Assembly: GCA_024403175.1 (NCBI GenBank)
Contig: JAKSSI010000089.1
Span: 1-6,075, forward strand
DNA length: 6,075 bases
Reading direction: 5' to 3'
Source: Clostridia bacterium
GTDB lineage: Bacteria > Bacillota_A > Clostridia > Peptostreptococcales > Anaerovoracaceae
The first letter of the stretch is position 1. Every line of letters begins with the position of its first letter. Both the position numbers and the translations under genes were made by a program. The notes beneath the pieces are model-generated. The model was not told where the DNA came from. It saw only the letters and a list, made by a program, of their open reading frames with translations, and searched no databases. Below, piece after piece: positions 2,856 to 6,075 of this stretch.

Positions 2856-3050
2856 AAGCTTGGAAGAATTCAGCTTACCGAGGAGTGGAGACTTCTTGAA
2901 TATGTTAGAACAAAATTCCAGTGCTGGACAAGATTTTATATGATTGATAAAGACGGCGTTATGGGAAGTGTTTATAATTATGTAAACCATAAGGAAAATT
3001 ATAACTTTATAAAGGCTCTAAAACGCTACTATAACCAGAAGTATTTCTAA
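2856..3050 (+). pseudogene. Detached C-terminal tail of the LTA-synthase-family gene, in frame after a premature TAA
   Basis: After the TAA at 2853-2855 the same frame stays open for exactly 64 codons to TAA 3048-3050. It reads KLGRIQLTEEW, then RTKFQCWTRFYMIDKDG and ALKRYYNQKYF. The composition (aromatic-rich, D-x-D-G turn, final QYD/KYF-like end) is what follows the GLDLLKL-type segment in clostridial members of this family. No frameshift is needed; one base change (for example TTA to TAA) would restore a 601-codon gene. The tail has no ribosome site or credible start. It is therefore probably untranslated unless the stop is read through or is a sequencing error. Confidence 0.75.
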
Positions 3051-4195: not shown

Positions 4196-4255
4196 AGAAA
4201 AATCTATTTTCATATATAAAAATAAAATAATATAAATTCCAGGAGGATTAAAACC

Positions 4256-5101
4256 ATGAAAAAAGCATTATCACTTGTACTTGCACTTGTACTTGTTTTA
4301 AGCTTCGTAGCATGCGGAAAGAAGGAAACAAGCGTTACAATCGCAGTTCCAAACGACACATCCAATGAAGCTCGTGCACTGCTTCTTCTCGAAGCTCTCG
4401 GCTACATCGAAGTAGACGATAAGGCAGGCATTACAGCTACAGTAAAAGACATTACAAAGAACCCAAAGAACATTAAGTTCAACGAAGTAGAAGCTGCTCA
4501 GCTTCCAAACGTTCTTAAGGACGTAGACTATGCAGTAATCAACGGAAACTATGCTATTCCTGCAGGTCTTAAGCCAGCTGATGCTCTTGGCATCGAAGGT
4601 TCTGCATCCCCATATGCAAACATTCTCGTAGTAAAGCAGGGCAATGAAAAGACACCTATCATCGTTGCTCTTAAGGCTGCTCTTGAATCCAAGCAGGTTC
4701 AGGACTACATCAAGAAGACATATCCAGATGGATCCGTTGTTACAACAGTTGACAACCCAACAGATGGTTATGACAAGTCCGTAGATTATGCAGCACTTTC
4801 TGGCAATACTGTAACAGTTGCAGCTACACCAGAACCACATGCATCCATTCTCACAAATGTTGTTAAGGACATTCTTGCAGCAAAGGGAATTACACTTAAG
4901 GTTGTTGAATACACAGACTACGTTCAGCCAAACCTCGTAGTTGAATCCGGAGAAATTGATGCTAACTACTTCCAGCACGAACCATATCTTAACGACTTCA
5001 ACGCTGAACAGAAGACACACCTCGTAACAATTTCTTACATTCACTGCGAACCAATGGGTCTCTTCGGCGGAAAGCAGAAGACACTTGATGCTTTAAAGTA
5101 A
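4256..5101 (+). CDS. metQ: Methionine ABC transporter substrate-binding lipoprotein MetQ with circularly permuted domain order
   Basis: A 281-residue lipoprotein: MKK, hydrophobic core, then a lipobox-like FVAC with C20 as the lipidated residue, and a Lys/Glu linker. The family is NlpA/MetQ, which captures methionine outside the membrane for MetN/MetI. The halves are swapped. Residues 26-165 (VTIAVPNDTSNEARALLLL, DITKNPKNIKFNEVEAAQLP, VDYAVINGNYA, SPYAN, QDYIKKTYPDGSVV) are normally the C-terminal half. A linker (166-183) follows. Residues 184-281 (NTVTVAATPEPHASIL, EYTDYVQPNLVVESGEIDAN, YFQHEPYL, CEPMGLFGGKQKTLDALK) are normally the N-terminal half, which usually reads straight on into the PNDTSNE motif. 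Likely ligand contacts on both halves are kept: the Tyr-Phe-His of NYFQH, R40, the Asn residues of NGNYA, and N122. AGGAGG nine bases before the ATG fixes the start. Codon use suggests high expression. metN follows after one base. Confidence 0.93.
   Translation: MKKALSLVLALVLVLSFVACGKKETSVTIAVPNDTSNEARALLLLEALGYIEVDDKAGITATVKDITKNPKNIKFNEVEAAQLPNVLKDVDYAVINGNYAIPAGLKPADALGIEGSASPYANILVVKQGNEKTPIIVALKAALESKQVQDYIKKTYPDGSVVTTVDNPTDGYDKSVDYAALSGNTVTVAATPEPHASILTNVVKDILAAKGITLKVVEYTDYVQPNLVVESGEIDANYFQHEPYLNDFNAEQKTHLVTISYIHCEPMGLFGGKQKTLDALK
4272..4295 (+). repeat. Two perfect 12-bp tandem repeats inside the MetQ signal peptide
   Basis: CACTTGTACTTG occurs twice in direct contact (4272-4283, 4284-4295). 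The unit is four codons, so copy number changes keep the frame and only lengthen or shorten the hydrophobic core (SLVL, ALVL) of the signal peptide. Confidence 0.8.
4331..4750 (+). other. Relocated C-terminal half of MetQ (now first)
   Basis: Encodes residues 26-165. In canonical MetQ this block begins after the first hinge crossing (…SLDEL.. then VAIPND…) and runs to the C-terminus. Here it is fused directly behind the lipobox linker. All expected motifs are present in their own internal order, with no stop or frameshift, so the half looks complete. Confidence 0.85.
4751..4804 (+). other. Linker joining the old C-terminus to the old N-terminus of MetQ
   Basis: Residues 166-183 (DNPTDGYDKSVDYAALSG) match no conserved MetQ motif. 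They resemble the variable, polar spacer that normally lies between the lipobox Cys and the first strand of MetQ lipoproteins. They may be what is left of the mature N-terminus of a second fused copy (inference). Confidence 0.55.
4805..5098 (+). other. Relocated N-terminal half of MetQ (now last)
   Basis: Encodes residues 184-281. It starts with the first strand motif VTVAATPEPHASIL and ends at GGKQKTLDALK. In a canonical protein the chain would cross the hinge here and continue with the VAIPNDTSNEARALLLL segment, but TAA (5099-5101) follows at once. The cut is therefore at a lobe boundary and not inside a secondary structure element, by family knowledge. Confidence 0.85.
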
Positions 5102-5102
5102 T

Positions 5103-6075
5103 ATGATCGAATTAGTAAATCTATCGAAAAAATTCACAACTTCAGAAGGCGAAGTAGATGCTCTTAACAATGTGTCGCTGTCCATTGCGGATGGCGACAT
5201 ATTTGGCGTTATCGGCATGAGTGGTGCAGGTAAATCTACACTGGTTCGCTGTATAAACCTTCTTGAACGCCCAACAGAGGGCAAGGTAATAGTAGACGGA
5301 GTAGACATGATGAGTCTTTCCGATGCTGCTCTTAGAGAAAAGAGACGAGACATTACAATGATTTTCCAGGGCTTCAACCTCTTAATGCAGAGAACAAACC
5401 TGGCAAATGTATGTTTCCCATTAGAGCTTGAAGGCGTAAAAAAGGCCGATGCTGAAAAGAAAGCTTACGAACTTTTAGAGCTTGTAGGTTTAAAGGACAA
5501 GGCAAAGGCTTATCCAGCACAGCTTTCCGGTGGTCAGCAGCAAAGAGTTGCTATTGCAAGAGCTTTGGCTACAAATCCAAAAGTTCTTCTTTGCGACGAA
5601 GCTACATCTGCACTGGATCCTAAAACTACAAACGAAATATTGGCACTTATTAGAGATATTAATGCCAGACTTGGAGTTACTGTAGTAATTATCACTCACT
5701 CTATGAGCGTAGTTGAAAGTACTTGTAAGCACGTTGCAATTTTAGACCACGGCGTTGTAGCTGAAACAGGTGATGTTTCTGAAATTTTCAGCAACCCACA
5801 ATCTGCTGCAGCAAAACGTCTTGTTTATCCAAATTCCGAAAAGGAAACTGTTGCAACTTATGAAGGACATGATTACTTCATCAGATTAGTATTTAACGGT
5901 GAAGAAACAACAGATAAACCTGTTATTACAAGTCTTGCCTTAGAAAAAGGTATCGCTGCTAGCATCATTGCTGCTCAGACTACAAACATCGGTGGACAGA
6001 CTTTCGGTAGTTGTATACTCGGTATTGATGGCGACGAAAACACATTTAAGGCTGTCATGGATTACCTGCACGCTG
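5103..6075 (+). CDS. metN: Methionine ABC transporter ATP-binding protein MetN, 3' end outside the window
   Basis: The 324 visible codons start at ATG 5103, one base after the metQ stop (TAATATG). There is no strong ribosome site, so translation is probably coupled to metQ. The cytoplasmic ATPase domain shows Walker A GMSGAGKST (38-46), Q-loop Q89 (FQGFNLL), signature LSGGQQQR (141-148), Walker B VLLCDE (161-166), the ATSALDP D-loop and H-loop H199. From about 256 (HDYFIRLVFNGE) a NIL/ACT-like domain begins. In MetN this binds methionine and shuts the transporter down when internal methionine is high. Its TFGSCILGIDGDE and AVMDYLHA segments are visible, so only the last few residues are likely missing. 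It looks like an ordinary MetN. The permease gene metI would be expected next. Confidence 0.96.
   Translation, partial: MIELVNLSKKFTTSEGEVDALNNVSLSIADGDIFGVIGMSGAGKSTLVRCINLLERPTEGKVIVDGVDMMSLSDAALREKRRDITMIFQGFNLLMQRTNLANVCFPLELEGVKKADAEKKAYELLELVGLKDKAKAYPAQLSGGQQQRVAIARALATNPKVLLCDEATSALDPKTTNEILALIRDINARLGVTVVIITHSMSVVESTCKHVAILDHGVVAETGDVSEIFSNPQSAAAKRLVYPNSEKETVATYEGHDYFIRLVFNGEETTDKPVITSLALEKGIAASIIAAQTTNIGGQTFGSCILGIDGDENTFKAVMDYLHA

Follow-up and report, generated by a model that had tools for sequence, protein, structure and literature searches.

The window, by which is meant the whole 6,075-nucleotide stretch of DNA that was analysed, carries on its forward strand a metQ gene (4256–5101; ATG start, 281 amino acids, TAA stop) that was delimited from its open reading frame and from Pfam and PDB alignments, with a Shine-Dalgarno AGGAGG (4241–4246, forward strand) that can be read directly in the sequence ahead of it. 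The predicted protein opens with a signal peptide and lipobox (..SFVAC, Cys20; 4256–4315, forward strand), recognized in the sequence, the cysteine of which is invariant in 45 aligned rows (A1) of group A, the set of relatives that includes the window. After a spacer of five residues, as placed by the sequence and by spacer statistics, the Pfam and PDB alignments locate the half that is C-terminal in canonical MetQ (residues 26–165, with R40, N98, and N122; 4331–4750, forward strand), a new internal linker (residues 166–182, DNPTDGYDKSVDYAALS; 4751–4801, forward strand), and, now last, the canonical N-terminal half (residues 183–281, with Y222, F239, H241, and Y244; 4802–5098, forward strand). 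One base past the metQ stop starts an ordinary metN (5103–6075, forward strand), an ABC ATPase with a NIL domain that runs off the window; the Pfam matches (ABC_tran and NIL) bear out the metN neighbor named in the initial annotation. No Rfam family reached its gathering score in the window, and methionine control by a riboswitch thus finds no support there.

Upstream of the metQ operon, and on the same strand, are an ORF for a 4Fe-4S protein (406–1248) and a QueA-type gene (PF02547; 3122–4153), neither of which has an evident link to methionine transport. Between them lies a sulfatase-family ORF (PF00884; 1245–3050, forward strand) with a TAA at 2853–2855, beyond which a further 64 codons can be read in frame before the TAA at 3048–3050; the earlier TAA reflects either a nonsense mutation or an error in sequencing.

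The order of the halves was established from profile and structure alignments. Pfam Lipoprotein_9 (PF03180) matched the window protein in two stretches (253.4 bits against a cut-off of 27; E = 2e-75), the better of which places profile positions 99–233 on residues 28–162, while the family N-half falls on residues 184–281, such that the protein belongs to the family by descent and departs from its canonical linear order. A search of the PDB matched 22 sequences, each in two stretches, and the order was swapped in all three of the alignments listed, including 4k3f, for which query residues 184–280 pair with chain residues 3–98 and query residues 26–162 with chain residues 101–237. The chain of the window protein runs from the old C-half through the old C-terminus, the 17-residue linker, and the old N-terminus to the loop that formerly joined the halves. 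In the canonical order, this short loop leads from the final small helix of the N-half (TLDALK) to the opening strand of the C-half (TIAVPND), and it is where the chain has been cut, probably at or just past the hinge. The linker is conserved to the same degree as its surroundings (mean majority fraction over the 45 A1 rows of 0.84 versus 0.83 and 0.84 in the halves). The lipoprotein at 4256–5101 is thus confirmed as a naturally occurring circular permutant of MetQ/NlpA, as the initial annotation had proposed from the letters alone; its residue ranges for the two halves (26–165 and 184–281) were correct to within one residue, the signal peptide, lipobox, and half motifs are intact as described, and a profile match in normal linear order, which it had named as grounds for withdrawing the claim, was looked for and the swapped order was found. 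The same single Pfam accession covers permuted and ordinary proteins, so annotation can hide a permutation. The NCBIfam models TIGR00363 and NF008285 score the window protein at 138 and 140 bits, below their cut-offs of 228.85 and 374, and this was considered as a sign of permutation and rejected, since the canonical sisters L141 and L193 also fall below the cut-offs and the failure does not single out the permutant.

The swapped order is shared by the closest relatives of the window protein. Among 7998 homologues scored in a protein search, all of the best 120 hold a C-half followed by an N-half (C-N order), with 89 simple C-N proteins, 31 with three half-hits, and no canonical protein; the linker is 17 residues in 89/89 of the C-N proteins, and this uniformity, together with the lack of any canonical form among the 120 homologues listed, excludes chance. 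Amongst the best 80 of 138 loci in a scan of contigs, three are permuted (L001, L002, and L003; 86, 67, and 62% identical, respectively) and the remaining 77 each have at least one canonical ORF. Whole-genome searches returned C-N matches across both halves in at least 32 of 394 genomes from one order (111 with any match), at least 26 of 197 from one family (79 with any match; two of the 26 matches are partial), at least 18 of 247 from another family searched with a group B query (92 with any match), at least 18 of 391 class-wide (113 with any match), and at least 3 of 398 phylum-wide (138 with any match), these counts being lower bounds from overlapping samples with differing queries and limits. 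A group C query had close matches (84–100%) in 4 of 296 genomes.

When re-scanned with half-profiles, a C-N ORF was present in 77 distinct genomes, with 12 more loci concordant, and linkers of 17 residues in 59 genomes, 18 in one, 11 in 12, and 25–28 in five; none of the loci retrieved from these 77 genomes held a canonical MetQ ORF. For three genomes (G1266, G981, and G996) the C-N order is read from the span of the match alone. Several permuted genes sit on near-complete contigs (3.757 Mb of 3.8 in G606, 1.739 of 1.7 in G491, and 2.55 of 2.6 in G346), and a protein from Gemmiger sp. An120 (P0123; Oscillospiraceae, longest contig 572 kb) matches a group B gene at 100% identity. Close relatives with the canonical order would have spoken against the permutation, and the relatives proved to be permuted as well, some on genome-length contigs; given the C-N ORFs in 77 genomes, the 12 concordant loci, and these contigs, an assembly error is very unlikely. 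The permuted form is widespread in the Clostridia, well beyond the single case that had first been described. Four unannotated records from phage collections ('Bacteriophage sp.', human faeces; MT835961, MT838975, MT839148, and MT838178) also have a one-piece match across both halves and are probably bacterial DNA in viromes.

Permuted genes form three groups, A, B, and C, that share the same cut loop and have linkers unlike one another in sequence and in length, with 17 residues in group A, 11 in 93 of 97 group B proteins, and 24–27 in 118/118 group C proteins. A mixture-model tree (92 rows, 236 columns) requires three changes of half order, with support of 100/99 each for group B, for group C, and for group A together with the canonical L141; without L141, group A has weak support (61/66) and is not firmly a clade. 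A quick tree leaves the relation of group A to L141 open, nests group B with canonical genes of the same family, and groups C with the canonical L164, L217, and L219. For the group B query, one canonical N-half is 74% identical and full-length group A matches are 47–54% identical. Approximately unbiased (AU) tests reject a single origin of all three groups (p = 1.6e-7) and each pairwise union (A+B, 0.0076; B+C, 0.0037; A+C, 0.020), though these p-values are optimistic, since an earlier tree had already revealed the groups. The operon order is metQ-metN-metI in group A and its canonical neighbor G423 and metN-metI-metQ in group B and its canonical neighbor G617; group C also has metN-metI-metQ, and its canonical neighbor G467 has an extra gene (Ldh domains) before metQ. 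The canonical MetQ of G423 is L141, the sole PF03180 gene of that genome, which falls within or next to group A, shares its operon order, and would be the nearest sister with unpermuted halves or else a revertant.

Based on the trees, the linkers, and the operon order, the simplest and best supported reading is that one site was permuted independently three or more times. The alternative of one ancestral permutation with repeated reversion, or of one permuted scaffold whose halves were replaced through gene conversion by canonical copies, could draw on the common cut loop and on the position of L141 and is nonetheless improbable: every union of groups is rejected by the AU tests, the linkers differ in both length and sequence, the operon order matches that of both canonical relatives compared (for groups A and B), and the distant relatives from the contig scan are canonical (among the best 80 of 138 loci). 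Gene conversion in particular is opposed by the lack of a canonical donor copy in 20/20 permuted genomes.

Several lines of evidence bear on whether the permuted proteins function. In all 20 permuted genomes tested (13 from group A, five from B, and two from C), the sole PF03180 matches are the two halves of the permuted gene, making it the only MetQ in each; in one genome, G463, a contig end carries an additional, partial match to group C. The metN gene adjoins metQ in 16/16 permuted loci examined (11 A, three B, and two C), and a Pfam match identified metI at one locus from each group (L227, L234, and L237). The window ends inside metN, and for group A the order of metN with a NIL domain and then metI is seen in the relative L227, so that the window metN and the L227 metI together give the operon of a MetNIQ importer. 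Group B operons L234–L236 encode short MetN ORFs (245–249 aa); in the L234 ORF, the one scanned, no NIL domain is seen, in contrast to the MetN proteins scanned from groups A and C.

The MetQ of Neisseria meningitidis is reported to hold methionine with R156, N213, and N238 of one domain and with Y81, F98, H100, and Y103 of the other (PMC6739813). By motif and spacing, the counterparts in the window protein are R40, N98, and N122, corresponding to the residues that bind the amino and carboxyl groups, and Y222, F239, H241, and Y244, corresponding to those around the methionine side chain, with one set on each half. All seven are invariant in the 45 A1 rows and are kept in 25/25 group A and 8/8 group B rows of the tree. 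In group C, the position of N213 is a threonine in 5/5 rows and that of Y103 a phenylalanine in one of five; its members (L149–L152 and L199), with the canonical L164, L217, and L219, form a divergent NlpA subfamily in which the N-half has a non-PTPH start. Due to the N213 replacement and the divergent N-half, the substrate of this subfamily may differ and may not be methionine.

Values of dN/dS (Nei-Gojobori) range from 0.013 to 0.177 in 11 pairs (0.122 for the window against L001), and for the linker only, over as few as 11–26 codons, they are 0.13 for the window pair and 0–0.39 in eight pairs, being undefined in three. AlphaFold2 models were confident for group A (pLDDT 89.3, pTM 0.82) and group B (pLDDT 87.2, pTM 0.81, with two of five models poor at 69.6 and 65.6), and have the two alpha/beta lobes of the type II substrate-binding fold, matching solved type II proteins. 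Sequential aligners matched mainly the C-half to MetQ structures (for 4ib2, 141 residues at 1.6 Å, among the 50 matches listed), a pattern that is expected of a permutant and does not speak for a different fold; the C-half is 48–52% identical to the six best rows from Foldseek. The operon, the contact residues, the dN/dS values, and the confident model argue for a functional permuted protein. A real rearrangement in non-functional decay, the alternative, is very unlikely in light of these dN/dS values, the conserved ligand residues, the standing of the permuted gene as the only MetQ in 20/20 genomes, and the intact Shine-Dalgarno sequence and operon.

The route by which the halves were exchanged would likely have begun with a tandem duplication of metQ, followed by in-frame fusion and loss of the outer halves. 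Canonical metQ genes do occur in tandem (e.g., L020, L024, and L052), which makes duplication and fusion plausible. The candidate intermediates are proteins with three half-hits, which among the best 120 of 7998 homologues comprise 18 C-N-C, 12 N-C-N, and one C-C-N; of 114 further proteins, 16 have three half-hits, including two (P0220 and P0224; 250–257 aa) with merely a broken C-half, and one is a lone C-half. Another set of 120 listed proteins contributes two C-N-C. In four of the seven shown (P0011, P0012, P0022, and P0025) there is a clear switch of parent at a conserved motif (PTPHAEIL, DANYFQH, or VPNDTTNEARALLLL), as in one example with about 190 residues identical to the permuted L111 and a canonical-like remainder; in the other three (P0023, P0121, and P0134) the parents are too distant for the switch to be placed. 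As duplication intermediates these proteins were mostly rejected, the switches lying between unlike parents at the most conserved motifs, and the three-half metagenome proteins are probably mostly assembly chimeras. Genome searches with queries from groups A and B showed no three-half gene, each genome with a full-length C-N match giving that one match; the protein search covered lengths up to 1.75 times the query, with four-half fusions outside this range. The tandem fusion put forward in the initial annotation therefore stands as a route that we infer, with its starting material at hand and its sole candidate intermediates probably mostly artefacts. Such entries (P0007–P0034, P0121, P0134, and others) could pollute family alignments.

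That chimeras seem to occur in this family, with three half-hits in 31 of the best 120 proteins and a clear switch in four of seven, gives some color to the view that the swapped order is itself an assembly or metagenome chimera, a view rendered almost untenable by the 17-residue linker in 89/89 C-N proteins listed, the C-N ORFs of 77 genomes (several on single genome-length contigs), the identity of P0123 to a group B gene, and the fact that two fused canonical genes would not place a signal peptide directly before a C-half. It is highly probable that the window encodes a working, membrane-anchored permuted MetQ and that the same cut has arisen at least three times independently in the Clostridia, in groups A, B, and C.

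The lobes of type II binding proteins are arranged with pseudo-twofold symmetry. The cut loop would be the counterpart of the native N-terminus, and a cut at this position would add no crossover and would keep the two-lobed design, which is a likely reason for the repeated use of this loop. HHalign detected no sequence likeness between the two halves, and the pseudo-twofold argument thus rests on knowledge of the fold and on alignments that span other type II proteins from end to end at high rmsd (4.8–6.2 Å for 2b4m). The two halves would be expected to close around methionine in Venus-flytrap fashion and to pass it to the MetN-MetI transporter encoded alongside.

The lipid anchor of the permutants is on the other half from that in canonical MetQ. 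The spacer from the cysteine to the first domain has a median of five residues in 61 group A, five in 12 group B, and eight in five group C members, versus 17 in canonical proteins (104 of 116 with a lipobox), with overlapping ranges (2–30 versus 3–54); medians in the protein sets are five (89 from A), four (91 of 97 from B), and nine (101 of 118 from C), all with the lipobox found by a simple motif and the kinship of rows ignored. For N. meningitidis it is reported that lipid is required for full stimulation of MetNI (PMC8416018), and the geometry of the tether may therefore matter; it is our hypothesis that a short tether on the other half is relevant to the contact with MetNI. A bolder reading, tentative and somewhat less probable than its converse, is that MetQ has a preferred swap point, cut at least three times in the Clostridia with replacement of the canonical gene, and that moving the anchor onto a short tether reflects selection for how the protein is held against MetNI and not drift.

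Should the permuted proteins work, as is probable, the order of lobes in type II binding proteins could be changed with the system kept intact, and methionine sensors based on MetQ would have in the cut loop a site already tried by nature. Identity to canonical relatives from the same bacterial families reaches 44–74% per half, and such canonical and permuted relatives allow paired tests of chain order against folding, domain closure, docking to MetI, and lipid anchoring. What appears to be new here is permutation in MetQ/NlpA, with its recurrence at one site as the surprising part, permuted binding proteins being already known in other families. A search of the open-access literature found no circular permutation of MetQ/NlpA, in agreement with the initial annotation, in which no described case was known (subscription papers were outside its scope).

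Compared with MetQ/NlpA itself (PF03180; Ruminococcus gnavus 4ib2 and N. meningitidis MetQ), the permutant has homologous halves, the ligand residues, the lipobox, and the metN/metI operon, and differs in the reversed halves, the new linker, and the shorter lipid tether (median 5 versus 17 residues). The nearest parallel of the same kind in another family is TpMglB-2 (Tp0684), the glucose-binding protein of Treponema pallidum, described as a natural circular permutant with the proposed designation 'Type Ic / Cluster Bc' and as binding ligand and changing shape, with relatives in Gram-positive gut bacteria (PMC4990184). Both are naturally permuted binding lipoproteins of ABC importers with halves in rotated order. 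According to that account, TpMglB-2 differs in its type I fold, in which strands of the N-lobe are permuted and a fourth crossover is needed, and its permuted part is 13% identical to the E. coli MglB counterpart. Glycine-betaine-binding proteins (2b4l OpuAC, 1r9l, and 1sw1), molybdate-binding proteins, and CysB have been related by permutation through structure, using CPSARST (PMC2395249); the OpuAC/ProX proteins likewise have type II-like folds related by circular permutation, and the group A and B models both align end to end with OpuAC. Within that set, as reported, identity is <24% and the relation is drawn from structure, whereas the MetQ permutants keep canonical relatives at up to 74% identity per half. 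The natural permutants of binding proteins that our literature search turned up are isolated, ancient cases linking remote proteins, whereas those of MetQ number three in one family, at one site, with the operon preserved.
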